A stretch of DNA of 64,000 nt from assembly GCF_014208045.1 (NCBI RefSeq), contig NZ_JACHML010000001.1, positions 1,550,001 to 1,614,000 of the forward strand, in the 5' to 3' direction. The notes under the pieces are model-generated. The model saw nothing but the letters and a program-made list of their open reading frames with translations, was not told the origin of the DNA and did no database searches. Below, in pieces: positions 12,093 through 47,858 of the stretch (positions are counted from its first letter, which is position 1; every line of letters begins with the position of its first letter). This DNA comes from Microbacterium thalassium (lineage in GTDB: Bacteria; Actinomycetota; Actinomycetes; Actinomycetales; Microbacteriaceae). Made by a program: the position numbers and the translations under genes.

Positions 12093-12736
12093 CGACGCGC
12101 CGCGCGACCCTCGACGACCTCGGCGCGATCATGGCGCTCGAGCGTGCGTCGTTCCCGACCGACGCCTGGTCCGACGCCATGATGCGCGAGGAGATCCTGT
12201 CGCCGCACGGCTGGTACGTGGTGGTCGAGGAGGCCGGACACCTCGTCGGCTACGCCGGCCTGCGGGCCGTCCACGGCAGCCGGGACGCCGACGTGCAGAC
12301 CATCGCGCTCGCCGCATCCGCTCGCGGTCGTGGGCGCGGTCGCGCGCTGCTGCGGACGCTCCTGACCGAAGCCGCCCGCCGCCGCGTGCGCGAGGTGTTC
12401 CTCGAGGTGCGCGCCGACAACCCGGTCGCGCAGGCGCTGTACGCGTCCGAGGGATTCCAGGAACTCGGCCGTCGCCCGAAGTACTACCAGCCCGACGGCG
12501 TCGACGCGATCGTCATGCGCCTGGACGTCGCCGGCTGGCTCGCCGCGCGCGGTCCGGATGCCGTGTCCGCCGCATCCGCGCCCGCCGCCGTGCCCGCCCC
12601 CACCGGCACACGAACGTCGGAGGATCGCGTGAACGTCGGAGGATCCGGCTCGGATGCTCCGACGGAGGACGGTTTCTCCGACGTTGCGGGCGTGCGCGAG
12701 CGTGCTGCCGCGAACGAGGCGGGAGCGTGCACGTGA
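12089..12736 (+). CDS. rimI: ribosomal-protein-alanine N-acetyltransferase RimI with a repeat-derived C-terminal tail
   Basis: 215-residue GNAT acetyltransferase, likely acting on the N terminus of ribosomal protein S18 and perhaps others. The core (residues 1-150) has the acetyl-CoA motif [14 protein letters not shown] and the end motif [18 protein letters not shown] typical of RimI. About 60 extra residues follow. Much of that tail (roughly 175-200, containing [18 protein letters not shown]) is encoded by the palindromic element at 12611-12688, which is read in frame. Family members are usually about 150 residues, so the tail is probably an unstructured addition. Confidence 0.93.
12611..12688 (+). 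repeat. palindromic dispersed element, copy 1, inside rimI
   Basis: Outer arms CGAACGTCGGAG and CTCCGACGTTG with an inner pair GAACGTCGGAGGATCC and ATGCTCCGAC. The same arrangement recurs at 15380-15453 (reverse strand), 31299-31380 and 47776-47858, with a half copy at 19289-19328. Here it is read as part of rimI without breaking the frame. Confidence 0.85.
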
Positions 12737-13812
12737 ACAGCGCTGAGCCGCTGGTCCTCGGGATCGAGACGAGCTGCGACGAGACCGGCATCGGGATCGT
12801 GCGCGGCCGCACGCTCCTGAGCAACACCATCGCCAGTTCGATGGACGAGCACGCCCGCTACGGCGGCGTCGTGCCCGAGGTCGCCGCCCGCGCCCACCTC
12901 GAGGCCCTGCAGCCCGCGCTCGAGACGGCGCTCGCCGAGTCGGGTGTCGCCCTCGCCGACGTCGACGCCGTCGCCGTCACGAGCGGGCCCGGCCTCGCCG
13001 GCGCTCTCATGGTCGGCGTCGGCGCCGCGAAGTCGCTCGCGGTCTCGCTCGGCAAGCCGCTGTACGCCGTGAACCATCTGGTCGGCCACATCGCCGCCGA
13101 CATCCTCGACGCCGAGGCGCCGCCGCTGGAGTACCCCACCGTCGCACTGCTCGTGAGCGGCGGGCACACGTCGCTGCTGCTCGTGCGCGATCTCACCGGC
13201 GACGTCGAGATGCTCGGCGAGACGATGGACGACGCCGCCGGCGAGGCGTTCGACAAGGTCGCGCGGCTGCTGGGGCTTCCGTACCCCGGCGGTCCCGAGA
13301 TCGACCGCGCGGCGGCGACGGGCGATCCGGACGCGATCCGCTTCCCGCGCGGGCTGTCGCGCGCCTCCGACATGGCGAAGCACCGCTACGACTTCTCGTT
13401 CTCGGGCCTGAAGACGGCCGTCGCGCGGTGGGTCGAGCAGCGCGAGGCGGCGGGCGCGGAGATCCCGGTCGCCGATGTCGCGGCGTCCTTCCGCGAGGCC
13501 GTCGTCGACGTCCTCGTGACCAAGGCGCTCGCGGCGTGCCGCGACTACGACGTGCCGCGGCTGCTGCTGGGCGGCGGTGTCATCGCCAACAGGCGCCTGC
13601 GCGATGTCGCGCTCGAGCGTGCGGCCGAGCAGGGGGTCACCGTGCGCATCCCGCCGCTGTCCCTGTGCACCGACAACGGGGCCATGATCGCCGCCCTCGC
13701 CTCCGAGCTCATCATGTCGGGGCGGATGCCGTCGACGCTGCAGTTCGGCGCCGACTCGACCCTGCCCGTGACCGAGATCCAGGTCGCGGCCGACGCAGAG
13801 GATGCCGCATGA
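12733..13812 (+). CDS. tsaD: tRNA N6-adenosine threonylcarbamoyltransferase TsaD
   Basis: 359-residue catalytic subunit that transfers threonylcarbamoyl from threonylcarbamoyl-AMP to A37 of tRNA. It opens [17 protein letters not shown] and has the metal-binding HxxxH in [11 protein letters not shown] (about residues 113-123). [32 protein letters not shown] and [13 protein letters not shown] follow in family order. I take the GTG at 12733, which overlaps the rimI stop (GTGA) and has GGGAG eight bases before it. A GTG six bases earlier is also possible. Confidence 0.97.
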
Positions 13813-14624
13813 CCGGGGGAGTGGACGCGGGACGCCCGACGAAGCCCGACGAGGGCGGCGTGGACGAGACGGCTGTGCCTGACGCGTCCGGGGAGGCGGC
13901 GTCGGCGCGCACGGACGCCGTGAGCCCTGACGCTGCGACCCCTCCGGACGCCGCCGGTCCGGCCGCGCCCCTCGCGAACGCCCCGGACTCCGCCGACGCG
14001 CCGGCAGGCTCGCACGAGCCTGCGGCGCCCGAGGCGCCGCAGGCCGTGACGCCCGCAGCGACCGAGCCCGCAGCGCCCGCAGGCTCCGAGCCGTCGGCGC
14101 CCGTCGTCGGAGCAGCCGCCCCGGCGACGGAGTCCGCGCCCGACACCGCCGACTCCCCGGCGGAGGGCGGCTGGCTGTACCCGACCGCGGTCCCGGTGAC
14201 GTCGGAATGGATGACGGGGCCGACGTCGGCGGACGTCGACTCCCGCGCCGACACGTCGCGCCTGCCCGGCCAGCATCGCGGCGGCTTCTCGCGTCTGCCG
14301 ACGGCTCCGGTCGACGTGACCGTGCGCACCGGCCCCGAGCCGGACACCGCCACGAACTGGGCGCAGACGCCGCAGGCGGGCCCCCAGCGCGGGCTCGCCG
14401 GGTGGGCGCTGATGTTCGCCGTGCTGGGGCTGGCCGTGTCGATGTTCGTGGGCTGGGGCTTCCCCATCGGGCTGGTCGGCGTCGCCTCCGGCATCCTCGC
14501 GCTGCGCCGCCCGACCGAGAACCGCGCCCTCGCGGGGTGGGCGGTCGTGCTCGGCACGGCGTCGCTCATCTACAGCGCCGGCTGGCTGTGGTTCGCCGCG
14601 TCGCAGGCGAATCTGTTCGGCTGA
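13809..14624 (+). CDS. Ala/Pro-rich membrane protein with C-terminal DUF4190-like domain
   Basis: 271 residues. The first about 190 are low-complexity (Ala, Pro, Glu, Thr, Ser) and presumably disordered and cytoplasmic. The last 70 hold two membrane helices around [19 protein letters not shown] and [18 protein letters not shown], with [14 protein letters not shown] between them, a pattern found in DUF4190 proteins. It overlaps the tsaD stop (ATGA), so it is the last gene of the tsaB-rimI-tsaD unit. Its function is unknown; coupling to tsaD is probably just operon packing. Confidence 0.85.
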
Positions 14625-14636
14625 CGGCGGGCGCGC

Positions 14637-15956
14637 TCAGGCGGCGGGGAGCCGGTCGGCGAGGATCGCCGTGCGCTTGCTGCCGATGCGGGTGAGGAAG
14701 AGGGTCGCGGATGCCTCGCCCCGCAGCTTGAGCTTCGTCCGCAGCGCGGCCGGATCGACGTCGACGCCGCGCTTCTTGATCTCGAGGCGCCCGATGTCGC
14801 GTGCGCGCAGCGCCGAGGCGAGGCCCTTGGTGTCGGCGGGCAGGACCTCGCGCACGCGGAACGACTGCACGAAGGGACTCGTGAGCGCGGCATCCGAGGT
14901 GAGGTAGGCGATGTGCTCGTCGAGCATGCCCGCCTCGAGCGTCCGGGCGACGTCGCCGATGAGCCGCGCGCGGATGACCGCGCCGTCGGGCTCGTGCAGG
15001 TACGCGCCGAGCTCGCGCGTCGGTTCGTCCTCGGCGTCGGCGCCGGCGGTGATCTCGGCCGCCGCGTCGCCGCGGATCACGAGCGCCGCCCGCGCGACGC
15101 CCGGCCGCGCGAGAGAGCCCGACCAGAGCACCAGCTCGATCGTCGAGCCGTCGGCGCTGACCCACTGCGCCTCGAAGCCGTCCGGGATGAGGTCGCGGTC
15201 GAGTCCCGGCCCGAGCTTGATGCCCGCCGGGACGCGCCCGGCCAGGTCGAACGTCCAGTCCAGGCTCGGCGACCAGTCCTCGGGGGCGGTGCGCTTGGTC
15301 TCGCGGTGCCCCGCCGTGCGGCGTGCCGGGTCGAGCCAGACCGCCTCGGGCGCTGCGGCCGCGGCATCCGCCCCCGTCGCGTCGGAGATTCCCACGTTCG
15401 TCGGAGCATCCGCGCCCGATCCTCCGACGTTCGTTGGATTCTCCGACGTTCGGGGGTCGCCGCCCCCGGGGAACGCGGATGCCGCGAACTCCTGCGCCGT
15501 CGCGTGGCGCACGCGGACGTCCGAGCCGAACGGCGCGAGGTTGTAGGCGGCGATGGCGGCTGTGATCTCGTCGGCGTCGACGGCGTCGACGGTAAGCCCG
15601 AGCGCGGCGAACCCCATCGCGTCGCCGCCGATGCCGCACCCGAGGTCGGCGACGCGCGCGATACCGGCATCCCGGAACCGCGCCGCGTGCCGAGCGGCGA
15701 CGCCCAGCCGCGTGGCCTGCTCGAGGCCGGCGCGCGTGAACAGCATGCGCTGGGCGAACTCGCCGAACTTCTCGCCGGCACGGGCGCGCAGCCGCGCCTG
15801 ACCGACCACCGCGGAGACGAGGTCGGGGGAGTGCCCGTCCTTGCGCAGCCGCGACACGACGCGGGCGACGTCGGCGGACGTCTCGACGGGGTCCAGGGCA
15901 TCGAGAAGCCGCAGGCCCTCGGGCGTGAGCAGCGCGGTCAGCTCGGCCATGTCCAT
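14637..15956 (-). CDS. class I SAM-dependent methyltransferase with THUMP-like C-terminal domain, carrying a repeat-encoded insert
   Basis: 439 residues. Rossmann-type methyltransferase core with motif I VADLGCGIGGDAMGF near residues 102-116, acidic loop VDAVDADEIT and later VWLDPARRT. The C-terminal third (LKLRGEASATLFLTRIGSKR) resembles the THUMP-like domain of actinobacterial putative RNA methyltransferases. Residues about 168-192 (RTSENPTNVGGSGADAPTN) come from the palindromic element at 15380-15453 read on the minus strand. It sits between a core strand and the catalytic motif, at a likely surface loop. The RNA target is unknown. Confidence 0.85.
   Translation of the reverse strand: MDMAELTALLTPEGLRLLDALDPVETSADVARVVSRLRKDGHSPDLVSAVVGQARLRARAGEKFGEFAQRMLFTRAGLEQATRLGVAARHAARFRDAGIARVADLGCGIGGDAMGFAALGLTVDAVDADEITAAIAAYNLAPFGSDVRVRHATAQEFAASAFPGGGDPRTSENPTNVGGSGADAPTNVGISDATGADAAAAAPEAVWLDPARRTAGHRETKRTAPEDWSPSLDWTFDLAGRVPAGIKLGPGLDRDLIPDGFEAQWVSADGSTIELVLWSGSLARPGVARAALVIRGDAAAEITAGADAEDEPTRELGAYLHEPDGAVIRARLIGDVARTLEAGMLDEHIAYLTSDAALTSPFVQSFRVREVLPADTKGLASALRARDIGRLEIKKRGVDVDPAALRTKLKLRGEASATLFLTRIGSKRTAILADRLPAA
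15380..15453 (-). repeat. palindromic dispersed element, copy 2, inside the methyltransferase gene
   Basis: On the minus strand the order CGAACGTCGGAGAATCC, AACGAACGTCGGAGGATC, GGATGCTCCGACGAACG, TCTCCGAC matches copy 1 in the same orientation relative to the gene. It encodes the same core peptide NVGGSGxDAPT in the same frame as in rimI. Confidence 0.85.
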
Positions 15957-16014
15957 CCGACCAGCCTAGGTCCGCCGCAGGACCGGACGGAGATGTCCGA
16001 TCAACCCCTGGTGC

Positions 16015-16037
16015 ATGAATCAGGTTTCATCTAGTGT
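16015..16037 (+). promoter_or_regulatory. probable promoter and small palindrome upstream of the esterase gene
   Basis: ATGAA (16015-16019) and TTCAT (16026-16030) form an inverted repeat just before a -10-like TAGTGT (16032-16037). This leaves a leader of about 115 nt before the esterase ATG at 16158. A repressor site is possible; no regulator is adjacent. Confidence 0.4.
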
Positions 16038-16157
16038 CGGACCTGCGCCCGTGGCGGCGCGCCGCGCGGAATCGATGCGGATGCCGCGCGCAGCTCCCGC
16101 CCGGATGCCCTGAGCAATGGTGCCGGGGGCGACGGCGGGGCGATCGAAGGAGCACTG

Positions 16158-17621
16158 ATGCCCTCATACCGTTCGCGATCCACGTCCCGCTCCACCTCCT
16201 CCCGTCCCACCCCACCCCGCTCGTGCCTGATCGCGGGCGGCATCGCCGCCGTCCTCGCGGTCGTCGGCCTGGTCGGCGTCGCGCCCGCGGCGCAGGCGAT
16301 CATCTGCCCGCCCGGCTTCGAGACGCTCCCCGGCTGCACCAACGGCGACACCGGCGGGGGCGGCGACACCGGCGGCGGCACGACGACCGGAACCTGGACC
16401 ACCGAGACGATCGCCGGCATGAGCGTGCGCCTGTACACCCCGATCACCGACCCCGCGCTCGCCGCGGGGCGCGCGCTCATGATCGGTCTCCACGGGTGTG
16501 CGCAGACGGCCTCCGACATGCAGACGGCCGGCAACTGGGCCGCGACCGCCGACGAGTACGGCATGGTCGTGGCGCTGCCCGACGCGCCGAACGGCGGCGT
16601 CATCTTCGGATGCTGGGACTACTACGACACAAGCCACTCGCGCACGGCTCCCTCGCGTCACGACGACAACCTGCTCGACCTCGCGTCGACGCTGCAGGCG
16701 CGGTCGGCGCTCGGCATCGACGCCGACCAGACCTACATCTCGGGGCTGTCCTCGGGCGGCGGCGAGACCATGGTGATGGGGTGCCTCGCGCCCGACGTGT
16801 TCGCCGGCATCGGCATCAACGCCGGTCCCACCGTCGGGACGACGTCGGGTCAGATCGGCAGCGTCGCGGTGAGCAAGGCGCAGGGGACCTCGACGTGCAC
16901 GTCGTTCGCCGGGTCGGCGTCCGACGCGTTCGACACCCAGGTGACGTCGATCATCTACGGCAGCAACGACGGCACCGTCGCGCCGGGCTACAACACGCTC
17001 AACGGCCAGATCATGGCGGGCATCTACGGCGCCGGCACCACGTCGACGTTCTCGCTGTCGGGACTCGCCGGCAACAACACCGCGGGTTCGGGCACGCTGT
17101 ACTCGGACGCCGAAGGTGCCCGTGTCTCGGTCATCCAGAACACGAACCTGGGCCACAACTGGCCCGCGGGCGCGGGCTCGGGCGGCTCGTACATCTCGGC
17201 GAACAGCATCGACTACCCGGCGTACGTCACGGGCTTCTTCTTCGACAACAACCGCCGCGTCGACCGCACGGTGCCCACGCCCACTCCGACCCCGACCCCC
17301 ACGCCCACTCCGACCCCGACCCCCACGGCGACGGCGACCCCGACGCCGACCCCGACGCCGACCCCGACCGCGACGGCGACGCCCACACCCACGCCCACGC
17401 CCACCGCGACGCCGACCCCGACCCCGACCCCGACGGACTGCATCACGGCCACCAACGCCGAGCACAAGGCCGCGGGGCGCGCGATCTCGTACGGCGTGAA
17501 CCCCTACAACCCCTACTACGCCGTGGTGACCCAGGCGTACTTGGGGCAGGGCGATGCGACCGTGACGTCGCTGCAGGCGGCGGCATCCGGCGGGTACACC
17601 GTGGTGAGTTCGTGCGGCTGA
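16158..17621 (+). CDS. secreted poly(3-hydroxybutyrate)-depolymerase-like esterase with Thr-Pro linker
   Basis: 487 residues. A twin-part N terminus (basic, Ser-rich, then LIAGGIAAVLAVVGLVGVAPAAQA) is a Sec signal with an AQA cleavage site near residue 50. The alpha/beta-hydrolase domain has LHGCAQTASDM (oxyanion region), nucleophile Ser198 in GLSSG, an Asp in YGSNDGTV and His in NLGHNWP, as in LpqC/PHB-depolymerase esterases. A (TP)n linker of about 55 residues joins a C-terminal module of about 60 residues (CITATNAEHKAAGRA...) resembling substrate-binding ends of secreted depolymerases. GAAGGAG precedes the ATG. Likely an extracellular polyester or acyl esterase. Confidence 0.85.
   Translation: MPSYRSRSTSRSTSSRPTPPRSCLIAGGIAAVLAVVGLVGVAPAAQAIICPPGFETLPGCTNGDTGGGGDTGGGTTTGTWTTETIAGMSVRLYTPITDPALAAGRALMIGLHGCAQTASDMQTAGNWAATADEYGMVVALPDAPNGGVIFGCWDYYDTSHSRTAPSRHDDNLLDLASTLQARSALGIDADQTYISGLSSGGGETMVMGCLAPDVFAGIGINAGPTVGTTSGQIGSVAVSKAQGTSTCTSFAGSASDAFDTQVTSIIYGSNDGTVAPGYNTLNGQIMAGIYGAGTTSTFSLSGLAGNNTAGSGTLYSDAEGARVSVIQNTNLGHNWPAGAGSGGSYISANSIDYPAYVTGFFFDNNRRVDRTVPTPTPTPTPTPTPTPTPTATATPTPTPTPTPTATATPTPTPTPTATPTPTPTPTDCITATNAEHKAAGRAISYGVNPYNPYYAVVTQAYLGQGDATVTSLQAAASGGYTVVSSCG
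17272..17436 (+). repeat. coding microsatellite (Thr-Pro/Thr-Ala repeat)
   Basis: Imperfect tandem repeats of ACGCCCACTCCGACC-type units encode alternating Thr and Pro with some Thr-Ala. The region is prone to slippage by whole units, so linker length may vary between strains without breaking the frame. Confidence 0.9.
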
Positions 17622-17653
17622 CGAGACAGGCTGCGGGCTGCCGTCGTCATGGA

Positions 17654-17680
17654 CTGGCACTCACGTTGCACGAGTGCCAG
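17654..17680 (+). promoter_or_regulatory. CIRCE operator 1 (HrcA) overlapping the groES -35
   Basis: CTGGCACTC-N9-GAGTGCCAG is a perfect 9-9-9 palindrome. The -35 TTGCAC (17666-17671) lies within its spacer and the -10 TAGACT is at 17690-17695 (spacer 18), so HrcA binding would block the promoter. This form resembles Streptomyces groE CIRCE sites. Confidence 0.92.
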
Positions 17681-17700
17681 TGCCTTGCCTAGACTGCTCG

Positions 17701-17727
17701 TTAGCACTCTCAGCATGCGGGTGCTAA
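17701..17727 (+). promoter_or_regulatory. CIRCE operator 2 (HrcA) downstream of the groES transcription start
   Basis: TTAGCACTC-N9-GGGTGCTAA matches the CIRCE consensus with one mismatch in the second arm. It sits about at +1 to +25 of the promoter TTGCAC-N18-TAGACT and 36 bp before the groES start. Confidence 0.92.
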
Positions 17728-17762
17728 TGAGTCTTCAGTCTCAAGGAAAGAAGAGGTAGACC

Positions 17763-18059
17763 GTGTCGGTTTCCATCAAGCCGCTCGAGGACCGCATCGT
17801 CATCAAGCAGGTCGAGGCCGAGCAGACCACGTCCAGCGGTCTGGTCATCCCCGACACCGCCAAGGAGAAGCCCCAGGAGGGCGAGGTCGTGGCGGTCGGC
17901 CCGGGCCGCATCGACGACAACGGCAACCGCATCCCGCTCGACGTCGCTGTCGGCGACCGCGTCATCTACAGCAAGTACGGCGGGACCGAGGTCAAGTTCG
18001 GCGGTGACGAGTTCCTCGTCCTGTCGGCTCGCGACGTCCTCGCGGTCGTCGTCCGCTGA
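17763..18059 (+). CDS. groES: co-chaperonin GroES
   Basis: 98-residue heptameric lid of the GroEL chaperonin. It opens [15 protein letters not shown], with the mobile loop [16 protein letters not shown] at about 19-34 and the roof region [16 protein letters not shown]. The GTG start follows AAGAAGAGG. Two CIRCE sites upstream imply HrcA heat-shock control. No groEL follows; a hairpin terminator and an unrelated transporter gene come next, so groES is monocistronic here and groEL must lie elsewhere, as in many actinobacteria. Confidence 0.98.
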
Positions 18060-18078
18060 GACGCGCGCTCCGCGTAGC

Positions 18079-18112
18079 GGAAGGGTCGGACGCTTCGGCA
18101 TCCGGCCCTTCC
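18079..18112 (+). terminator. hairpin terminator after groES
   Basis: GGAAGGGTCGGA / TCCGGCCCTTCC, a 12-bp stem with one G-U pair and a 10-base loop, followed by GTCGTTTC. Confidence 0.8.
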
Positions 18113-18183
18113 GTCGTTTCCGGGCTGAGGAGCGCGGGCCACGCCGGTCTCGGTGGCCCGGAGCCGGTGACGCGCACCGACAC

Positions 18184-18189
18184 TAGGCT
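18184..18189 (+). promoter_or_regulatory. -10 TAGGCT of rarD, leaderless type
   Basis: TAGGCT ends six bases before the GTG at 18196, leaving no room for a leader with a ribosome-binding site. Confidence 0.6.
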
Positions 18190-18195
18190 GGATCG

Positions 18196-19230
18196 GTGAC
18201 GCACTCGAGCCCCGAACCCGCCGGCGACGGCGCCGAACTGGGAGAGGCGGCCGCCGCCACCGCGGGCATCGTCGTCCCGGATGCCGCGGCTCCCGCATCC
18301 GCGCCCGACGCCGCCCGCGAGCGCGCGATCGGCGGCGTGTACGCGTTCACGGCGTACCTGCTGTGGGGCTTCCTGCCCCTGTACTTCCTGCTGCTGGCGC
18401 CCGCCGGCCCGTGGGAGATCGTGGCCTGGCGCATCCTGCTGTCGCTGGTGTTCTGCGTGGTGCTGCTCACCGTCACGCGGACGTGGCGGTCGCTGCGAGC
18501 GATCATGCGACAGCGGCGCCTGCTGCTGTGGACGGCGGTGGCAGGGGTGCTCATCTACGTCAACTGGCAGGTGTTCCTGATCGCGACGCTGACCGGGCAC
18601 GTGATCGAGACCAGCATGGGTTACTTCATCAACCCGATCTTCACCGTGCTGATCGGCGTGCTCGTCCTGCGCGAGCGCCTGCGCCGCGCGCAGTGGGTCG
18701 CGATCGGGATCGCGGGCCTCGCGGTCGTCGTCATCATCGTCGGCTACGGATCGTTCCCGTGGATCGCGCTCACCCTCGCGACCTCGTTCGGGCTGTACAG
18801 CCTGGTCAAGAAGCAGATCGGGCCGTCGGTCGACGCCATCAGCGGCCTCACGCTCGAGTCGATGTGGCTGGCGCCGATCGCCATCGCCGAGCTCGTCATC
18901 GTCGCGCTGACCACGGGGCTCGCGATCGGCACCGTGAGCGGCTGGCACACCGCGCTGCTGCTGATGGCGGGCGTCATGACCGCCACGCCGCTGCTCTTCT
19001 TCGCCGCCGGTGCACGCCGCGCGCCGCTCACGCTCATCGGGCTGCTGCAGTTCATCGCGCCGATCATGCAGTTCATCATCGGCGCCTGGATCCTCGGCGA
19101 GCCGATGCCGCTGGAGCGCTGGATCGGCTTCAGCCTCGTCTGGCTGTCGCTGATCGTGCTGACGGCCGACTCGCTGGTGGCGGCCCGCCGGTCGCGGGGC
19201 GGGGTGTCGGACGTCGCCGACCTGACCTGA
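18196..19230 (+). CDS. rarD: RarD/EamA-family drug/metabolite transporter
   Basis: 344 residues, inner-membrane protein with ten predicted helices from about residue 47 on, preceded by a 45-residue Ala-rich cytoplasmic tail. YAFTAYLLWGFLPLYFLLL, PWEIVAWRILLSLVF, NWQVFLIATLTGHVIETSMGYFINPIF (quoted in parts) and the final LGEPMPLERWIGF are hallmarks of RarD, the chloramphenicol-sensitivity branch of the EamA superfamily. The substrate is unknown. Transcription is probably leaderless. It converges with csoR; between them lies a half copy of the palindromic element. Confidence 0.9.
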   Translation: MTHSSPEPAGDGAELGEAAAATAGIVVPDAAAPASAPDAARERAIGGVYAFTAYLLWGFLPLYFLLLAPAGPWEIVAWRILLSLVFCVVLLTVTRTWRSLRAIMRQRRLLLWTAVAGVLIYVNWQVFLIATLTGHVIETSMGYFINPIFTVLIGVLVLRERLRRAQWVAIGIAGLAVVVIIVGYGSFPWIALTLATSFGLYSLVKKQIGPSVDAISGLTLESMWLAPIAIAELVIVALTTGLAIGTVSGWHTALLLMAGVMTATPLLFFAAGARRAPLTLIGLLQFIAPIMQFIIGAWILGEPMPLERWIGFSLVWLSLIVLTADSLVAARRSRGGVSDVADLT

Positions 19231-19288
19231 GGCGCCGGCGACGCCTTCAGAACGCAGGAGATTCGCGTCTGGGCAGGACGATTCGGTG

Positions 19289-19328
19289 CTGCATCCTTCG
19301 ACGAAGCGCGGATTCTCCGACGAACGGG
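19289..19328 (+). repeat. palindromic dispersed element, half copy between rarD and csoR
   Basis: GCATCCTTCGACGAAGCGCGGATTCTCCGACGAACGG corresponds to the right half of the element (ATGCTCCGAC ... GATTCTCCGACGTTCG in full copies). The left half is missing or decayed. The order here is given in outline; the GATTCTCCGACGAACG arm is the diagnostic part. Confidence 0.6.
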
Positions 19329-19335
19329 GGCCGGA

Positions 19336-19710
19336 CTACCGCACGAGGCGCGCGATCGCCTCCGACGCCTCGGTGATCTTGGCGTCGGCCTCGGCGCCGC
19401 CGGCGCGCGCCGCGTCGACGACGCAGTGGCGCAGGTGGTCGTCGAGCAGCCCCAGCGCCACGGCCTCGAGGGCGCTCGTCATCGCCGAGATCTGGGTGAG
19501 GATGTCGATGCAGTACTTCTCGTCCTCGACCATCGTGCGGATGCCGCGCGCCTGACCCTCGATGCGCTTGAGGCGGTTGACGTAGCGCGCCTTGTCCGAG
19601 ATGTACCCGTGGTGGGCGTGCCCCTCGTCGTGCGGATACGGCTCGGACGGCGTGATGCTCGGCTCGTCGTCCTCGACCGCATCCACGGGAGGGGTGGCGT
19701 CGGTGGTCAT
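19336..19710 (-). CDS. csoR: copper-sensing transcriptional repressor CsoR
   Basis: 124-residue DUF156/CsoR-family all-helical repressor that binds Cu(I) and leaves its operator. The ligand set Cys-His-Cys is present: KYCIDIL, then LDDHLRHCV (the H-x3-C pair). The basic DNA-contact segment [15 protein letters not shown] is near residue 43. The N-terminal tail is acidic with a His-rich patch HDEGHAHHG that may add metal affinity. The ATG overlaps the copA stop by four bases, so CsoR is the last gene of copZ-copA-csoR and controls itself through the operator before copZ. Confidence 0.95.
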
Positions 19711-22285: not shown

Positions 22286-22302
22286 CGTCCACCTTTCGTC
22301 GG

Positions 22303-22319: not shown

Positions 22320-22395
22320 CTCCGATCCAACTCTACGCCCCGCCGGAGTATTCCGTCGGCGGGGCGAGGAGGCGTTGGGACTGGGTGTCGCGAAA

Positions 22396-31298: not shown

Positions 31299-31380
31299 CT
31301 CCGAGCGTCGGAGAATCCGCCCTTCGTCGGAGGATCCGGTCGACATGCTCCGACTTTCGCCCGATTCTCCGACGTTCGGC
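31299..31380 (+). repeat. palindromic dispersed element, copy 3, intergenic
   Basis: CGAGCGTCGGAGAATCC, TTCGTCGGAGGATCCGG, ATGCTCCGACTTTCG, GATTCTCCGACGTTCGG: left and right outer arms GTCGGAGAATC and GATTCTCCGAC are perfect complements. In one plus-strand frame it would spell RASENPPFVGGSG, parallel to the rimI and methyltransferase copies, although no gene uses that frame here. Confidence 0.85.
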
Positions 31381-37575: not shown

Positions 37576-37582
37576 GCGGCGG

Positions 37583-38824: not shown

Positions 38825-38867
38825 TCGGCCACGCTAGCCGCCGATCCGCGTCGCGGCCAGGGTGGCG

Positions 38868-40928: not shown

Positions 40929-40935
40929 GCCCGCC

Positions 40936-40941
40936 ACTATA
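40936..40941 (-). promoter_or_regulatory. -10 TATAGT of the TAP-like hydrolase gene, leaderless type
   Basis: On the minus strand TATAGT ends seven bases before the ATG at 40928. Confidence 0.6.
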
Positions 40942-40982
40942 CGGAGGATTGCGCGCGGGCCGCGCACGCCGGGCAGAGACGA

Positions 40983-41016
40983 CGAAGGGGGCCGTCCGGA
41001 CGGACGACCCCCTTCG
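40983..41016 (-). terminator. terminator of the BI-1 gene
   Basis: CGAAGGGGGCCGT / ACGACCCCCTTCG, a 13-bp stem with one G-U pair on the minus-strand transcript and an 8-base loop, starting 12 bp past the stop. Confidence 0.85.
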
Positions 41017-41028
41017 CGATGCGAAGCG

Positions 41029-41937
41029 TCAGTTGCTGCGCACGATGGCGATGATGCGCAGGATCTCGATGTACAGCCACACGACGGTGACCATGATGCC
41101 GAAGCCGCCGAGCCAGCCGTACTGGCGGGGAGCGCCGTTGCGCACGCCCTGCTGGATCATGTCGAAGTCGAGCACGAGCGAGTACGCGGCCATGATGACC
41201 ACCAGCACGCCGATGATGAGACCGAGCGGGATGCCCATGATCTGCACGTCGCTGCGCAGGCCGAACGCCGAGTCGGTGACGCCGAAGAACATCAGGCCGA
41301 CGTTGACGAGGCTGAACACGAGGTAGCCGACCATCGCGACCATGAAGATCTTCGTGGCGCGCTTGGAGGCGCGGACCTTGCCGCTGGCGAACAGCGCCAG
41401 CGTCACGCCGACCACCGCGAACGTGCCGAGCGTCGCCTGGATGACGATGCCGGGGTACAGAAGCTCGAAGAACGCCGAGATGCCGCCGACGAACAGGCCC
41501 TCGAAGGCCGCGTAGCCGAAGATCAGCGCGGGGCGCACCTTCTTGCGCGACGTGAAGATGACGACCATCGACAGGATGAAGCCGCCGAGCGCGCCGATGA
41601 TCCACGGCAGCGCCGAGACGGTGCCGGTCGAGGCGACCGGGGCCATCGTCCACATCCAGCCGGCGACCGCGGTCACCAGCAGCACGGCGAAGAGGCCGGC
41701 GGTCTTCCACACGGTGTCCTCGACCGTCATCCGGTCGGTCTCGCGGGCGCCGGCCGGCGGGGCGGCGTACATGCCCTCGAGGTTCGCCTGGGCCGCGGCA
41801 TCCGTGGCCGCGTAGCGGGCGGTGCTCGCCTGGGCCGGGGTCCCGAGGTTCGCCGCCTGGGCGCCGCCGGGATAGGTCTGAACTGCTCGCTGGTCCTGGA
41901 ACGCCGGGTTGTTGAACGCGGGGTTGTTGAGGGCCAC
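41029..41937 (-). CDS. Bax inhibitor-1/YccA family membrane protein
   Basis: 302 residues. A hydrophilic N terminus with ALNNPAFNNPAFQDQ, typical of actinobacterial BI-1 proteins, is followed by seven helices (VWKTAGLFAVLLVTAVAGWMW ... IMVTVVWLYIEILRIIAIV). The Asp pair in LVLDFDMIQQGV marks the pH-sensing site of the family. Members leak Ca2+ or regulate proteases; the exact role here is unknown. I choose the GTG at 41937, ten bases after a GGAG; a GTG three codons earlier is too close to that site. Confidence 0.88.
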   Translation of the reverse strand: MALNNPAFNNPAFQDQRAVQTYPGGAQAANLGTPAQASTARYAATDAAAQANLEGMYAAPPAGARETDRMTVEDTVWKTAGLFAVLLVTAVAGWMWTMAPVASTGTVSALPWIIGALGGFILSMVVIFTSRKKVRPALIFGYAAFEGLFVGGISAFFELLYPGIVIQATLGTFAVVGVTLALFASGKVRASKRATKIFMVAMVGYLVFSLVNVGLMFFGVTDSAFGLRSDVQIMGIPLGLIIGVLVVIMAAYSLVLDFDMIQQGVRNGAPRQYGWLGGFGIMVTVVWLYIEILRIIAIVRSN

Positions 41938-42082
41938 TGCTCTCACACTCCAAAGTCGGGGGGTCTCACAGCGCTGTTGCTGTCGGTCCACGATATCCGA
42001 ACGCGGCGACAGGACGGCGATCGCGGGCTGTGAGGCCGCTATGAGCGTGTGCCGCGACCCCCGCGGCCGCGGTGTCCGCGGC

Positions 42083-42088
42083 TAGCCT
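42083..42088 (+). promoter_or_regulatory. -10 TAGCCT of the glycerophosphodiesterase gene, leaderless type
   Basis: TAGCCT ends six bases before the GTG at 42095. Confidence 0.55.
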
Positions 42089-42094
42089 GGGCGA

Positions 42095-43105
42095 GTGCCG
42101 CGCCGGACCCCGCTCGTGATCGGCCACCGGGGTGCACCCGGCTATCGGCCCGAGCACTCGCCCTCGTCGTACGCTCTCGCCTTCGCGTCGGGGGTGGACG
42201 CCGTGGAGCCGGATGTCGTCGTCTCGCGCGACGGCGTGCTCGTCGTGCGGCATGAGAACGAGATCTCGGGCACGACGGATGTCGCCGACCGTCCCGAGTT
42301 CGCCGACCGGCGGACGGCCAAGGCGGTGGACGGCGAGCTGATCACCGGCTGGTTCGCCGAGGACTTCACGTGGGACGAGCTGTCGACCCTGCGCTGCCGG
42401 GAGCGCCTGCCCCGCATCCGCCCCCGCAGCGCCGAACAGGACGACCAGGAGCCCCTGCTGCGACTGCGCGATCTGCTCGCGATGGTCGAGAGCGCCTCGA
42501 GGACGCGCGAGCGCGAGATCGGCGTCGTGCTCGAACTGAAGCATCCGACATTCCTCGCCTCGGCGGGCTTCGACATGGCCGCCCTCGTCGCGGCGGAGCT
42601 GCGCGCGGCCGGGTGGGCGTCGGGGCGGCATCCGCTCACGATCGAGTCCTTCGAGTGCACTGTGCTGGACGAGCTGCAGTCCCGCGGCATCAGCGCCGTC
42701 TACATCTACCTGCTCGAGGCGTCGGGGCGCCCCGCCGATCTGGTCGCCGCGCACGGCGCCGACGCCCCCACGTATCGCGCGACGGCGCGGCCCGCGGGGC
42801 TCGACGGACTGGTCGGTCGCGTGGACGGTATCAGCGTGAACAAGCGGATGATCCTCGCCCCCGACAAGCTGGGCCGCATCACGGGACCCTCACGCGTGGT
42901 CGCCGATGCGCACGAGCGCGGCCTGCTGGTGTTCACGTGGACGTGCCGTCCCGAGAACCGGTTCCTCGTGCGCAGCGTGCGCGGGCCCGGGGGACCGGCC
43001 GCGCACGGCGACTACGAAGCGGAGTGGGCGGTGATCCGCGACGCCGAGGTCGACGGCGTCTTCGTCGATCACCCCGACCTCGCGGTGGCCTTCTTCCGGC
43101 CGTGA
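42095..43105 (+). CDS. glycerophosphodiester phosphodiesterase
   Basis: 336-residue cytoplasmic GDPD-family TIM barrel. VIGHRGAPGYRPEHS has the first catalytic His and Glu; DAVEPDVVVSRDGVLVVRHENEI supplies the metal ligand Glu and the second His. LELKHPTF and the late FTWTCRPENRF region are normal. It releases glycerol-3-phosphate from glycerophosphodiesters. An Arg-rich loop (RCRERLPRIRPRS) is inserted near residue 110. No signal peptide, so it acts inside the cell or is released by another route. Confidence 0.9.
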   Translation: MPRRTPLVIGHRGAPGYRPEHSPSSYALAFASGVDAVEPDVVVSRDGVLVVRHENEISGTTDVADRPEFADRRTAKAVDGELITGWFAEDFTWDELSTLRCRERLPRIRPRSAEQDDQEPLLRLRDLLAMVESASRTREREIGVVLELKHPTFLASAGFDMAALVAAELRAAGWASGRHPLTIESFECTVLDELQSRGISAVYIYLLEASGRPADLVAAHGADAPTYRATARPAGLDGLVGRVDGISVNKRMILAPDKLGRITGPSRVVADAHERGLLVFTWTCRPENRFLVRSVRGPGGPAAHGDYEAEWAVIRDAEVDGVFVDHPDLAVAFFRP

Positions 43106-43118
43106 TCGCGGGTCGCAC

Positions 43119-43124
43119 TAGGCT
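43119..43124 (+). promoter_or_regulatory. -10 TAGGCT before the membrane protein gene, leaderless type
   Basis: TAGGCT ends six bases before the ATG at 43131. Confidence 0.55.
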
Positions 43125-43130
43125 GAGCCC

Positions 43131-44018
43131 ATGGCGAGCCCCGAGCGCACGGAACCGGAGCGTCGGGGCTGGATCGCCGTGGCCATCGCGGTGGGGCTGC
43201 TCGTGGTCGGCGCGGCGCTCGCCATCGCCTTCGAGGGTCTGCTGCGGTTCCGGTCGGACATCGGCGGGCCCCAGGATCTGCTGACCTGGCTCTCACGCGG
43301 GCTGCTCGCTCTCGCGCTGGCCTGGCTCGTGATCGGCATGCTCTCGGCGCGCACGAGCCTCGTGCGCCGTCCCGGCGCCGCGGCGGCGCGCGCCACGTGG
43401 ATCGCGGCGACGCGCCCGTGGCGGGCCCGCGAGTCGGCGCTGGGCGTGCTGCCGTTCGATCGGGTCCTCATGCTCACGGTTCCCGTGGGCCTGCTGGTCG
43501 GCACGCGCCTGCTGCAGGCGTCGTTCACGGCCTGGGCGGAACTCGCGGCCGTCGTCGCCGGGTGGCTCGTGTTCGCGCTCGTGGTGCGGCTGCTGGTCGG
43601 CAGGGAGTCGCCGTGGCCGGTCATCGTCGCGCTCGGCGGCGGCATCGTGCTGCACAGCACCCTCGTGCTCATCGCCCTGTCGATCGCCGGTCCCGCCGCG
43701 ATGTGGGGCGCGCTCGCCGCGTCTACGACGCTGCGCATCCTGGCGTCGGCGGTCTCGCTGGGCGCGTTCGGCTGGATCCTCGTGGCCGGCGCGTGGTCGC
43801 TCGTCGAGCAGCTCGGCCTTCGCCGCGCGTGGGCGACCGTGGCGGCCGGAGCCGGCGCGGGCCTGGCGGTGACGGCCGCGCTGGTGGCGGGAGCAGGCTT
43901 CGGCCCCGCGTCGCCGTTCGCCATCCCCCAGCCGACGCCGTGGGTGGCGGCGACCGTCGGAGTGCTGCTCTTCGCGGTCGGTGCGATCGTCGCGCTCGTG
44001 CGGCCGCGGAGCAAGTAG
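43131..44018 (+). CDS. membrane protein of unknown function
   Basis: 295 residues with about eight hydrophobic segments, from GWIAVAIAVGLLVVGAALAIAF to WVAATVGVLLFAVGAIVALV. A basic cytoplasmic loop (RTSLVRRPGAAAARATW) follows the second helix. I recognise no motif. It starts six bases after a -10 hexamer and stands alone between the phosphodiesterase and the OhrR-like regulator. Confidence 0.75.
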   Translation: MASPERTEPERRGWIAVAIAVGLLVVGAALAIAFEGLLRFRSDIGGPQDLLTWLSRGLLALALAWLVIGMLSARTSLVRRPGAAAARATWIAATRPWRARESALGVLPFDRVLMLTVPVGLLVGTRLLQASFTAWAELAAVVAGWLVFALVVRLLVGRESPWPVIVALGGGIVLHSTLVLIALSIAGPAAMWGALAASTTLRILASAVSLGAFGWILVAGAWSLVEQLGLRRAWATVAAGAGAGLAVTAALVAGAGFGPASPFAIPQPTPWVAATVGVLLFAVGAIVALVRPRSK

Positions 44019-44059
44019 GGGCGCGCGCTCCCGCGCGGCTTCGATGTCCGGCAGATACC

Positions 44060-44084
44060 TTGCATCCCAATGATTGGCATGCAA
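44060..44084 (+). promoter_or_regulatory. 25-bp near-perfect palindrome, probable operator of the MarR/OhrR gene
   Basis: TTGCATCCCAAT-G-ATTGGCATGCAA has 11 of 12 complementary pairs and lies 10 bp before the regulator ATG. Location and symmetry suggest autoregulation by the adjacent dimeric MarR protein. AT-rich sequence (AATATAG) follows. Confidence 0.75.
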
Positions 44085-44094
44085 ATATAGCCAC

Positions 44095-44604
44095 ATGCCG
44101 ACGACGCAGAGTGCCACGCTCGAGTCCTCGGTCTGCTTCGCCCTCTATTCGTCGCTGCAGACCACGCTGGGGCTCTACCGTGAGCTGCTGGCGCCGTGGG
44201 GGCTGACCTACCAGCAGCTGCTCGTGCTCGCGATCGTGTGGGAGCGCGGCGAGGTGGCTCCCGGCGTCCTCGCCGACGAGCTGTGTCTCGACCCGAGCAG
44301 CGTCTCGGGGCTGCTGGGCCGCATGGAGCGCGCGGGCCTCGTCCGCCGCGAGCACGACGCCGCGGACCGGCGCGCGGTGCGGGTCACCCCGACCGAGCGC
44401 AGCCTCGACATCCGCGCCGAGCTCGGACACCTGGAGCGCTGCGTCACCGACGCCATGCAGATCACGCGGGCGGATGCCGAGACGCTCGTCGCATCCCTCC
44501 ACTCCCTCCGCACGACCGTGCGGGCGTACGACGCCCGCGGTGCCACCGCCGAGGCGCTCGCGTCGCGGCCCATCCCCTCCGCCCCCGACACGACCGAGGA
44601 CTGA
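44095..44604 (+). CDS. MarR-family regulator of OhrR type
   Basis: 169 residues with a winged helix (LDPSSVSGLLGRMERAGLVRREHDAADRRAVRVTPTE). SVCFALYSSLQTTLGLYRELLAPWGLTYQQLLVL (in parts) matches the OhrR N terminus, and Cys14 occupies the reactive-thiol position that senses organic peroxides. I start at ATG 44095; a TTG seven codons earlier would run across the operator. The gene just downstream encodes a peroxidase, consistent with peroxide-triggered derepression. Confidence 0.88.
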   Translation: MPTTQSATLESSVCFALYSSLQTTLGLYRELLAPWGLTYQQLLVLAIVWERGEVAPGVLADELCLDPSSVSGLLGRMERAGLVRREHDAADRRAVRVTPTERSLDIRAELGHLERCVTDAMQITRADAETLVASLHSLRTTVRAYDARGATAEALASRPIPSAPDTTED

Positions 44605-44605
44605 C

Positions 44606-45103
44606 ATGACCCAGCTCACCGACATCGCCGTCACCACCATCCGCGGCGAGGAGACCACGTTCGGCGAGATCGCCGACGGCCGCCTCGCCCTCGTCGTCAA
44701 CGTCGCCTCGCGGTGCGGCCTGAGCCCGCAGTACGAGCAGCTCGAGGAGCTGCAGAAGATGTACGGCGAGCGGGGCTTCACCGTCATCGGCTTCCCGAGC
44801 AACCAGTTCCTCCAGGAGCTGTCCACCGAGGACGCCGTCGCGGACTACTGCTCGACGACGTGGGGTGTGACCTTCCCCATGACCGAGAAGGTCAAGCTGA
44901 ACGGACGCCACGCGCACCCGCTCTACAAGGAGCTCACCGGCACCCCTGACGTCGCCGGGAAGTCCGGTCGCATCACGTGGAACTTCGAGAAGTTCCTGGT
45001 GAGCCCGGGTGGCGAGGTCAAGCGGTTCTCGCCGCAGGTCAAGCCCGACGCCCCCGAGGTGATCGACGCGATCGAGGCGTGGCTGCCGGTCGACGCCGGC
45101 TGA
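44606..45103 (+). CDS. glutathione-peroxidase-family thiol peroxidase
   Basis: 165 residues. Thioredoxin-fold peroxidase with the catalytic Cys37 in NVASRCGLSPQYEQLEEL, the family motif GFPSNQF near 73 and WNFEKFLV near 130; a second Cys82 in ADYCSTT can serve as resolving residue in this mostly thioredoxin-dependent branch. The peroxidatic residue is Cys, not selenocysteine. The ATG has GAGGA five bases upstream and lies one base after the OhrR-like stop, so the two form an operon. Confidence 0.93.
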   Translation: MTQLTDIAVTTIRGEETTFGEIADGRLALVVNVASRCGLSPQYEQLEELQKMYGERGFTVIGFPSNQFLQELSTEDAVADYCSTTWGVTFPMTEKVKLNGRHAHPLYKELTGTPDVAGKSGRITWNFEKFLVSPGGEVKRFSPQVKPDAPEVIDAIEAWLPVDAG

Positions 45104-45161
45104 TCCCGCGGGTCGGCGTCCCACGGGTCCTTGTGCTCTGAGGCGCGCGTTCCCGGCCTCC

Positions 45162-45167
45162 TATGCT
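45162..45167 (+). promoter_or_regulatory. -10 TATGCT of the CHAD gene, leaderless type
   Basis: TATGCT ends seven bases before the ATG at 45175. Its ATG would be an alternative start, which the promoter position argues against. Confidence 0.6.
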
Positions 45168-45174
45168 GAGGTCC

Positions 45175-46047
45175 ATGGGTCACGGTCCGACCGCGGGCGA
45201 GGTGCTGACGACGATGGTGCGTCAGGCCGCCGGCGCGGTCGCCGAGACCGAAGCCGCCGCGATCGCCGACGAGCCCGACGGCGTTCACCAGCACCGGGTG
45301 CGGGTGCGGCGCCTGCGCAGCATCCTCGCGGGACTGCGCCCGCTGATCGACGAGGTCGCCGCGCAGCGGCTGCGCGTCGAATACGGCGCGTGGGGCGGGC
45401 AGCTCGGGCTGGTGCGCGACATCGAAGTGCTCGCCGACGTCGCGGAGGAGGCTCTGACCGATCTCGGCGTCGAAGATCCCCAGGTCTGGCGGCGCCTCGT
45501 CGACGCCCGGCGCGAGGAGTACCGGCGCGATCACGCGCGGCTGGTCGAGCTCGCGGAGACGCCTCGCGCCGTCGAGCGAACGCGTCTGCTCGCCGAGTTC
45601 GCACGGCATCCGCTCCTCGTCGACCCCGCCGCCCGAGCTCGCGATGCGCTCGCCGAGGCTCTGCGCCGCGAAGCCCGGCGCGTGCGTGACGCCGCCGGTC
45701 GGGTCGACGGCACGATCGCCTCGTACCACGCCGTGCGCAAGGCGGGCCGGCGCCTTCGCTACCTCGCCGAGGCGGTGCGGGACGCTGCGCCCGAGCTGTT
45801 CGGCGCCGAGGTCGACGAGCTCGCCGAGGCCGGCGACGACATCCACGGCTCGCTCGGCGACCACCGCGACGCGCTCGTGTTCGCGCACACGCTCGAGCAG
45901 GCGCGGGCGCTGGCCGGACGCGCCGGCGAGCCCGTGCTGGTGTACGACGAGCTGCTGGCCGACGCGCACGCGCGCGCCGGCGCCAAGCTGGAGTCGCTCG
46001 ACCCGGCGCTCGCCGCGGTCCGGCACGCCGCGCACCGGCTGCCGTAG
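45175..46047 (+). CDS. CHAD domain protein
   Basis: 290 residues, all-helical with conserved basic positions: VHQHRVRVRRLRSIL near residue 38, YHAVRKAGRRLRYLAE near 184 and LGDHRDALVFAHTLE near 226, the two-fold helical bundle of CHAD domains. CHAD proteins bind polyphosphate and target to polyphosphate granules in other bacteria. There is no triphosphate tunnel (CYTH) domain in this polypeptide. The ppx gene elsewhere in the window is a possible functional partner. Confidence 0.9.
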   Translation: MGHGPTAGEVLTTMVRQAAGAVAETEAAAIADEPDGVHQHRVRVRRLRSILAGLRPLIDEVAAQRLRVEYGAWGGQLGLVRDIEVLADVAEEALTDLGVEDPQVWRRLVDARREEYRRDHARLVELAETPRAVERTRLLAEFARHPLLVDPAARARDALAEALRREARRVRDAAGRVDGTIASYHAVRKAGRRLRYLAEAVRDAAPELFGAEVDELAEAGDDIHGSLGDHRDALVFAHTLEQARALAGRAGEPVLVYDELLADAHARAGAKLESLDPALAAVRHAAHRLP

Positions 46048-46051
46048 GGCG

Positions 46052-47299
46052 TCAGCGCACGCGGCGGCCGTGCGCGAGGTCGATGAGGTGCGGCAGCACG
46101 CTGCCGGCGCGGAGGCCGTTGTGCTCGTGCTCGCTCGTGATCCACGGCGTGACGCCGGGGAGCAGCCGCGCCGTCTCGAGCGAGAACTCCAGCGGCACGT
46201 AGACGTCGTGGACGTACACCGCGGCGGCGCCGCGCGCCCCCGAGGCCGCGATCGCGCCGGCGTCGTAGAGCATCGGCCACTCGTGGTCGGCGAGTGCCAG
46301 CGCGACGTCGCGCCAGCGGCGGAGGCCGGGAACCGTCTCGAGCCATTCCCGCCGCACGTGCTCGCCGGTCAGGAGCGTGAGGTCGTCGACGAAGTCGGCG
46401 GGCTCGGTGCGCTCGGCCGACCAGCCCGTCGCATGGCCGTCGGCGTAACTGGACTCGTGGAGCACGTAGTAGAGCGGATTGCGCACGTCGTAGCCCATCG
46501 CGGCGGCGAAGTCATGGCGGAAGGCGTTCGACGACGGATCGCGCTCGAGCAGCCCCCACAGCGTCTGCCAGCCGTCGTTCGACCCCAGCAGGAAGCCGAG
46601 CGACCGCACGCGCGACACCGACGCGACCTCGCCGGTGGGCAGGATCAGCTCGCCGTCGACGGCGAGGTCGATGACGCGGCGCATCGCGTCGCGGTGGCCG
46701 GGGAACCGGCGGTAGTAGCGCTCCGAGGCGTCGCGCATCTTGTCGTAGGTGAGGGCGTAGACGTCGTCGGGGTGCCGGCCCACAGCGCTGAGGCCCCCCG
46801 TGATGAAGACGTGCTCGAGCGAGGCGGCATCCGTCGTCAGGTACGCAAGCGTCGTGAAGCCGCCGAACGACTGGCCCAGCACGCTCCAGGTGGCGGCGCC
46901 CAGGTGCTCGCGCACCGCCTCGCAGTCGCGCACGATCGCGTCGGCGCGCAGGTGCGTGAGGTATTCGACGAGCGCGTCGGTGCCGCGCTCGAGGTCGGCG
47001 TCGCCCACGGGTGTCGACAGGCCGGTGCCGCGCTGATCGAGCATGACGACGCGGTAGTGCTCCAGCGCCGCGTCGAGCCACGAGGGGCCGACGGGGGAGT
47101 GGAACGGGCGCGGCGCCTCGTGCCCGGGTCCGCCCTGCAGGAACACCAGGAGGGGCAGGCTCTCGCCGCCGTCGCGGCTGACGACCGCGGCGTGGATGTC
47201 GATCGTGCGGGTGTCGGCGGGGTCGCCCCACACCAGCGGGACGGTGAGCGTGTGGTCGTGGACGGTGAGGTCCTGCATGCGGCGCGTCGTCACGGACAT
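46052..47299 (-). CDS. alpha/beta hydrolase, prolyl aminopeptidase (S33) type
   Basis: 415 residues, no signal peptide. FLQGGPGHEAPRP is the oxyanion HGGPG-like motif of S33 proline iminopeptidases, MLDQRGTGLSTP follows, and the nucleophile is in LGQSFGGFTTLAY. The late ITSEHEHNGLR supplies the catalytic His. Likely releases N-terminal amino acids (often Pro) from peptides in the cytoplasm. Start ATG at 47299 fits the family beginning. It converges with the CHAD gene (gap 4 bp). Confidence 0.9.
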   Translation of the reverse strand: MSVTTRRMQDLTVHDHTLTVPLVWGDPADTRTIDIHAAVVSRDGGESLPLLVFLQGGPGHEAPRPFHSPVGPSWLDAALEHYRVVMLDQRGTGLSTPVGDADLERGTDALVEYLTHLRADAIVRDCEAVREHLGAATWSVLGQSFGGFTTLAYLTTDAASLEHVFITGGLSAVGRHPDDVYALTYDKMRDASERYYRRFPGHRDAMRRVIDLAVDGELILPTGEVASVSRVRSLGFLLGSNDGWQTLWGLLERDPSSNAFRHDFAAAMGYDVRNPLYYVLHESSYADGHATGWSAERTEPADFVDDLTLLTGEHVRREWLETVPGLRRWRDVALALADHEWPMLYDAGAIAASGARGAAAVYVHDVYVPLEFSLETARLLPGVTPWITSEHEHNGLRAGSVLPHLIDLAHGRRVR

Positions 47300-47331
47300 G
47301 CTCCGAGCGTACGCGCGGCGACCCCGCGGGA

Positions 47332-47727
47332 TCAGGCCATGACGGCGCGGGGGTCGTCGGTCGGGACGATCTCCTTGCCGAGGGGCATGAGCGAGATCGG
47401 CACCATCTTGAAGCTGGCGATGCCGAGCGGGATGCCGATGATCGTGATGCACAGCAGGATGCCGGTGAGGATGTGCTCGAGCGCGAGCCACCAGCCGGCC
47501 AGGATCACCCAGATGACGTTGCCGAGGAACGAGCCGACACCCGCGCCCGGCTTGTCGATGATCGTGCGGCCGAACGGCCACAGCGCGTAGACGCCGTTGC
47601 GGAAGGACGCGATCGCCCACGGGATCGTGATGATCGGGATCAGCAGCAGGACGCCCGCGAGCATGTAGCCGAGGAACATCCAGAAGCCCGCCAGCACGAA
47701 CCAGATGATGTTGAGGAGGATGCGCAC
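47332..47727 (-). CDS. YccF domain membrane protein
   Basis: 131 residues with two repeats of the YccF domain: IIWFVLAGFWMFLGYMLAGVL and the matching VIWVILAGWWLALEHILTGIL, each followed by IPIITIPWAIASFRNG / ITIIGIPLGIASFKM. Four helices in total. Function unknown in bacteria. ATG start at 47727; same strand as the downstream hydrolase with a 32-bp gap. Confidence 0.93.
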   Translation of the reverse strand: MRILLNIIWFVLAGFWMFLGYMLAGVLLLIPIITIPWAIASFRNGVYALWPFGRTIIDKPGAGVGSFLGNVIWVILAGWWLALEHILTGILLCITIIGIPLGIASFKMVPISLMPLGKEIVPTDDPRAVMA

Positions 47728-47775
47728 GGGACGATTCTCTCAGCCGGATGCCGTGCGCAAGCTGGGACGGGCGTG

Positions 47776-47858
47776 GCTCCGAACGTCGGAGAATCACGCC
47801 AATGTCGGAGGGATCCGGTCCGGAGGCTCCGACATTCGCCGCGAATTCCGACGTTCGC
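47776..47858 (+). repeat. palindromic dispersed element, copy 4, between yccF and pcrA
   Basis: CTCCGAACGTCGGAGAATC, AATGTCGGAGGGATCCGG, GGCTCCGACATTCG, GAATTCCGACGTTCG. One extra G in the second block shifts the frame relative to copies 1-3, so this copy could not be read through as the same peptide. It sits about 45 bp upstream of the pcrA -10. Confidence 0.85.

Follow-up and report, generated by a model that had tools for sequence, protein, structure and literature searches.

A dispersed palindromic element in Microbacterium with four words at fixed 19-bp spacing and sequences that differ between lineages

Introduction

What is the palindromic sequence that recurs within a 64,000-nucleotide stretch of a Microbacterium genome, and how did its copies come to be there? 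The stretch (hereafter the window; G000:C1:1550001–1614000) belongs to a genome represented by a single contig of 3,696,012 bases (G000, the own genome). An earlier note, made from the window sequence alone, described four near-full copies and one half copy of a possible hairpin- or cruciform-forming palindrome, extrapolated to hundreds of copies per genome, and suggested a MITE- or REP-like element moved in trans. Here we describe the anatomy, distribution and orthologous occupancy of this element in the own genome and its relatives, and weigh the explanations that might account for it.

Results

All four near-full copies were found where the earlier note had placed them. The supposed right half copy at 19289–19328 is actually a degenerate full-length copy (copy 3), as the covariance model matches G000:C1:1569245–1569324 end to end and the left blocks can be recognised in degenerate form as GCAGGAGATTC and GGCAGGACGATTC; the E-value of this match is flattered because copy 3 is among the 12 rows used to build the model. 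When up to 3 mismatches are allowed, the window contains 12 occurrences of the outer word CGAACGTCGGAGAATC; 1.43 are expected, and the maximum in shuffles (n = 100) is 5. The copies and their neighbours are as follows.

11342–12736, or 12089–12736 with a later start: rimI, host of copy 1 (TIGR01575)
12611–12688, plus strand: copy 1, in frame near the 3′ end of rimI; covariance model match
12727–13812, plus strand: tsaD, 3′ of copy 1 (TIGR03723); anchor for the orthologous rimI junction
14637–15956, minus strand: host gene of copy 2, a Thump_like domain protein, probable methyltransferase
15380–15453, minus strand: copy 2, in frame inside the probable methyltransferase gene; covariance model match
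About 19245–19330, minus strand: copy 3, degenerate, full length, between convergent genes
31299–31380, plus strand: copy 4, in a spacer between tandem genes
47776–47858, plus strand: copy 5, in a spacer between divergent genes

The host protein of copy 2 matches the Pfam Thump_like family above cut-off and Methyltransf_25 below it, and its NCBIfam matches are weak.

The covariance model, built from 12 own copies, matches 18 distinct places in the own genome at E ≤ 0.005; with 150 of 4742 first-look candidates scored, weaker copies may escape, and two weaker matches (E 0.27 and 0.66) were left out of the count. A half-element pattern gave 22 matches, compared with 0 for the reversed pattern. 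With one IS30-interrupted remnant at 1734129, the copies detected by model and pattern search come to about 19 in 3.70 Mb, far fewer than the hundreds extrapolated earlier. The copies are clustered, with five in 35.5 kb (simulation p 0.0004) and eight pairs less than 20 kb apart where 1.84 are expected (p 0.0016). Because the window itself represents such a local cluster, extrapolation from it overstated the copy number.

Close spacing was also seen at other places. A small called gene of about 130 aa lies between two own copies 0.56 kb apart (G000:C1:3503962 and 3504528; L051 and L048). In relatives, three copies stand in tandem at steps of about 149 bp (L313:1931–2291, G009:C20), and a tandem cluster holds several copies within about 650 bp (L309, G020:C2).

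The element, 65–90 bases in size, follows the plan word, 19 bp, word, centre, inverted word, 19 bp, inverted word, with words of roughly 8–14 bp. The four-block layout with reverse-complement arms proposed earlier stands, with the correction that all blocks are variants of one word, two direct and then two inverted. All 20 invariant columns among 12 aligned own copies lie inside the words, an invariance that is partly ascertainment because most of these copies were found via the word pattern. The pairing potential of the element follows from the inverted words. Under the nested structure, 73.2% of cells are paired in the own copies compared with 75.5% in shuffles, the covariation score is 0.108 compared with 0.131, and the spacers are paired in 34.5% of cells, so the own copies show no pairing covariation beyond shuffles. 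We therefore rejected selection on the hairpin, whose sequence had been taken as the conserved feature; Rfam also holds no family that matches the element at gathering score, and on both counts the element does not behave as a structured RNA. The conserved thing is four words in a fixed layout, not hairpins. This geometry is observed directly; contact between the words and a protein is what we infer.

A search of relatives with the same model gave own-genus matches in 27 of 34 genomes at E ≤ 0.01. In the best matches in relatives the layout is the same and the words are different. We collected 80 loci of relatives, nearly all Microbacterium (1.588 Mb), via the probable methyltransferase. Two of the contigs, titled Stenotrophomonas maltophilia P13 (L143) and Planococcus sp. 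APC 4015 (L126), encode near relatives of the Microbacterium protein and probably reflect contamination or mislabelling. A word-free four-block scan of the 80 loci with both offsets free placed 27 of 125 matches at (19,19), compared with 0 of 30 in the shuffled sequence. The next classes, (18,18) with 13 and (15,15) with 10, are multiples of three, as coding sequence yields. Stricter scoring placed 14 of 17 matches at (19,19), and another setting 19 of 57 (shuffles 0 of 9). Pairs of direct words at a 19-bp offset, with an inverted partner no more than 150 bp away, gave 49 base-position matches, compared with 0–6 at 15 other offsets.

The same geometry accounts for 6 of 31 four-block matches in the window plus 400 kb of the own genome, for 0 of 6 in 300 kb from 15 other Microbacteriaceae genomes, and for 0 of 22 in 360 kb (18 stretches, 12 genomes) from other families of the order. 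At E ≤ 0.001 the own-word model matched 5 of 89 genomes from the family's other genera; around such places, 100 kb of sequence gave 12 four-block matches, 2 of them at (19,19). Hence, related elements extend to a few other genera.

The geometry is constant and the words differ between lineages. Examples are CGAACGTCGGAGAATC in the own genome, GGTCGGAGAATGTC in G011, AACTCGGAGAAT in G020, TTCGCAGAATCC in G009, GAACTCCGCAGAAT in G478–G481, GCGAGCCGACA in L187, CGAGTCCACC in L121 and GCGAGAAACCACA in L189. The mean best match between words is 8.68 of 11 within lineages compared with 6.89 between them, a value reached in 0 of 2000 permutations; the comparison covers 60 of 97 elements in six lineages, with groups under four, G313 and L187 set aside. 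Words of the own genome, G003, G009, G011 and G020 overlap, as their between-lineage values (7.35–8.4) approach the within-lineage range (8.1–11), and the G003 word is as near to G011 (8.26) as to itself (8.4). The dialects therefore form a graded series as well as unrelated sets. We considered a genome-wide word switch at the element 3′ of guaB, where L155 has TACTCC and L180 and L181 have AACTCC, but each of the four genomes contains both forms, so no such switch is demonstrated.

Orthologous sites are occupied in a patchy manner, and empty ones do exist. At the methyltransferase loop, 27 of 29 aligned relatives have no comparable insert. The two exceptions are G065, whose insert (L083, G065:C22:83232–84497) includes unread bases that appear as X in the translation, and G034, where a 19/19 element scoring 21 of 24 is built on the word ATCTTCGGAG and translated in a different frame; the difference in word and frame suggests an independent insertion in this loop. 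In the nearest relative, G313 (86% DNA identity), the rimI copy is absent, the methyltransferase loop holds a different insert of ill-defined type, and the site at 19247 is not recognisable as occupied. Its sites orthologous to 31299 and 47776 are occupied by diverged copies. Altogether G313 has 7 distinct matches at E ≤ 0.1, and 5 of these are orthologs of own copies; of the two relatives tested next, G355 gave 0 matches and G343 a few weak ones. With five own copies having diverged orthologs in G313, turnover is slow, and old copies decay slowly.

On the 3′ side of guaB (TIGR01302), strict 19/19 elements carry one word in L180, L181 and L183 and another in L189, and on the 3′ side of glmS (TIGR01135) the elements of L131, L136, L183 and L187 have different words. 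Symmetric matches of at least 25 of 35 are found in 6 of 37 guaB and 9 of 57 glmS downstream regions, with the own genome below this value. The words GGATGC/GCATCC form simple terminator-like hairpins 3′ of guaB and glmS in relatives. At the rimI junction, 7 of 29 four-block matches from 77 regions are at (19,19), compared with 0 of 20 in shuffles. Reading by eye had suggested many elements with different words there, but a recount leaves only the window (24 of 24) and L135 (23, same word) as strong; L164, L167, L172, L175 and L190 score 19–21, near the noise of the lax setting. This weakened one line of evidence, and we lowered our confidence in the main reading slightly.

One copy is present in G480 and absent in G479 and G481. 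BLAST coordinates for G481 and G479 pointed to an insertion overlapping by 3 bp, whereas from the alignment G481 seems to have undergone a deletion that left half an element; the one difference seen between two near-identical genomes thus reads as deletion. No clean recent gain or target-site duplication was found among the compared pairs, which are either too diverged or differ by deletions.

Site types were assigned with genes called by a codon-usage script. The own copies typed (n = 17) comprise 5 genic, 6 convergent, 4 tandem and 2 divergent. All 11 genic copies examined read through open in frame; six use one common frame (SEN/SED...), and copies of the GTCGGAG type use all three frames. 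Hosts identified by family search include rimI, argC (TIGR01850) in the same place in the own genome and G003, a heavy-metal P-type ATPase in G003 (TIGR01525) and an ABC ATPase in G011, in addition to the probable methyltransferase. The ArgC protein matches TIGR01850 in two stretches, in the own genome and G003 alike. In argC, rimI and the probable methyltransferase, the in-frame copies add about 26 residues and, as natural insertions, mark where these proteins tolerate them.

These data bear on the possibility that the copies are operator or architectural sites, bound in tetrameric form by a transcription factor or nucleoid protein of the host and kept for that function. Conservation of the words and not the spacers would fit such sites, as would the finding that all 7 perfect AACGTCGGAGRATC matches in the own genome lie inside copies (a tolerance of up to 2 mismatches raises the count to 58, many of them outside copies, compared with 4 for the reversed pattern). 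We nevertheless consider this explanation doubtful, given the patchy orthologous occupancy, the in-frame copies inside argC, rimI and other genes, the presence of two word types each in L183 and L187, and the lack of a shared function among neighbours noticed in an unsystematic look.

A second possibility is that the copies act as RNA hairpins at gene 3′ ends, either terminators or mRNA stabilisers. In the 80 loci, 23 of 27 elements lie outside called genes and 4 inside, though about 89% of the sequence is coding; the intergenic ones are in 14 tandem, 4 convergent and 4 divergent spacers, with 1 at an edge. In the own genome, convergent spacers make up 10.5% of spacer length and hold 6 of the 12 intergenic copies typed. 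This placement would fit RNA hairpins. A terminator, however, needs neither 19-bp direct spacing nor changing words, the own copies lack covariation and an Rfam family at gathering score, 5 of 17 lie inside genes and 2 in divergent spacers, so that an RNA role is unlikely.

Separately, GCATCC occurs 76 times in the window compared with 53.8 expected, and GGATGC/GCATCC is common in many spacers, for example at 12598, 15366, 31414 and 47748.

Template-switch (quasi-palindrome) mutation might instead build and homogenise the arms in place, with no transposition. Spacer positions agree between arms at about 0.5 within elements (the between-element control was badly registered and is not used), and the copy at 47776 differs from its G313 ortholog by a matched change in both inner words, as such mutation could produce. 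The mechanism leaves unexplained one word common to unlinked copies, the exact 19-bp direct spacing, and whole elements present or absent between species, and it sits poorly with the lack of covariation among own copies; we regard it as quite improbable.

We then consider the mover. As the earlier note stated, no transposase was found beside the window copies. It had also pointed to a REP-associated tyrosine transposase (TnpA-REP/RAYT), but a profile search for PF01797 found none in the own genome and a match in 1 of 59 genus genomes, compared with 5 of 14 well-known genomes in a control search, and the 3.4-kb locus around the sole genus gene holds no 19/19 element. The words seen also lack a GTAG tag. 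Although the element is like REPINs in size, palindromy, dispersal and lineage-specific words, it is highly improbable that it is a classical REP/REPIN with a RAYT (Y1 transposase) as its mover.

No autonomous form was found in the sampled sequence of relatives or in a word search of the own genome, and pairs of 19-bp direct words 300–6000 bp apart, counted as overlapping base positions, gave no convincing candidate. A 1.3-kb insert between element halves at 3681397–3682712 was examined as an autonomous form and rejected, as it encodes an IS30-family transposase (NF033563; HTH_38, rve): it is an IS30-family element (L013:1570–2745) inserted in a copy within G000:C1:3681397–3682712. The same IS30 end adjoins the remnant at 1734129 (L009), where an exact-match search did not recover the other end. 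Being inside one copy and abutting another, the IS30-type element seems to take the palindrome as a target and is not the mover's own element. Other insertion sequences are also reported to target REPs (PMC1525189). With one own copy as the query, phages gave no match, and plasmids gave three partial matches at E 0.7 that we take as chance.

Discussion

We propose, with a probability of roughly 0.57, that the copies are non-autonomous dispersed palindromes, similar to REPINs, RPEs or MITEs, that are copied in trans by a putative protein that reads the four words and whose specificity drifts between lineages. We infer the propagation of the element from its distribution. The putative protein would bind the words as double-stranded DNA, with two sites in each arm, an arrangement like that of transposon ends that combine inverted and direct repeats. 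This protein would copy the element in trans, the words would drift together with its specificity, and insertions would survive where they do no harm, for example in convergent spacers and protein loops or at C-termini and gene 3′ ends. Of the earlier suggestion of a MITE- or REP-like element moved in trans, the dispersed REP/MITE-like character holds, and the RAYT as mover does not. Binding, transposition and joint drift of protein and words are thus predictions of this model. Against it stand the slow turnover, the overlapping words, the single deletion, and the failure to find an enzyme, an autonomous form, a clean gain, a target-site duplication or a genome-wide word switch.

More tentatively, Microbacterium might have a RAYT-independent system of small-element transposition, in which a putative enzyme reads four words at a 19-bp dyad geometry, and fast drift of its specificity gives rise to lineage dialects, while the geometry and the favoured sites (methyltransferase loop, rimI C-terminus, glmS and guaB 3′ ends) stay constant. 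If the enzyme is new, this would be a system of small-element propagation that works without a RAYT. The fixed geometry with changing words provides a handle on the putative protein, as its DNA-binding part should vary in step with the word, and 366 genus genomes are available for tracking gene against word variation.

Transposon ends, for example those of Sleeping Beauty or the IS21 type, have inverted ends that each carry two direct binding sites. The present element resembles MITEs with inverted and direct end repeats in having two direct sites per inverted end, but it has almost no internal sequence, and no parental transposon or target-site duplication was found. REPINs are short dispersed palindromes that form lineage-specific families and are moved in trans by a RAYT of matching specificity. 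The likeness to REPIN/RAYT systems is in short dispersed palindromes with lineage-specific sequence families. The differences are an own genome without a RAYT, four words with 19-bp direct spacing, no hairpin within each half, and few copies. REPINs are built from GTAG-tagged inverted hairpin units, whereas the own copies, by eye, lack GTAG and the two words of each half are direct.

CGTC-tagged REPs are short palindromes, some of them intragenic, with no dedicated transposase (PMC3733652). The own word contains CGTC, but this tag is not kept in other lineages and is missing from the words of, for example, G009, G478–G481, L187 and L189, so the element does not belong to that group; its stem would also join two halves instead of lying in one short unit. 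Rickettsia palindromic elements (RPEs) are palindromic repeats that fall into ten families, measure about 150 bp and are found in frame within unrelated genes (PMC10969869). The 11 genic copies and the empty methyltransferase site match the in-frame residence of RPEs in protein genes. The present elements are shorter (65–90 bp) and lie mainly between genes, their four-word layout is fixed, and their words vary from species to species of an actinobacterial genus. Our literature search, with most subscription journals outside its scope, returned no paper on such elements in Microbacterium. Compared with all these systems, what is new is the combination of no known enzyme with changing words and a fixed 19-bp geometry.
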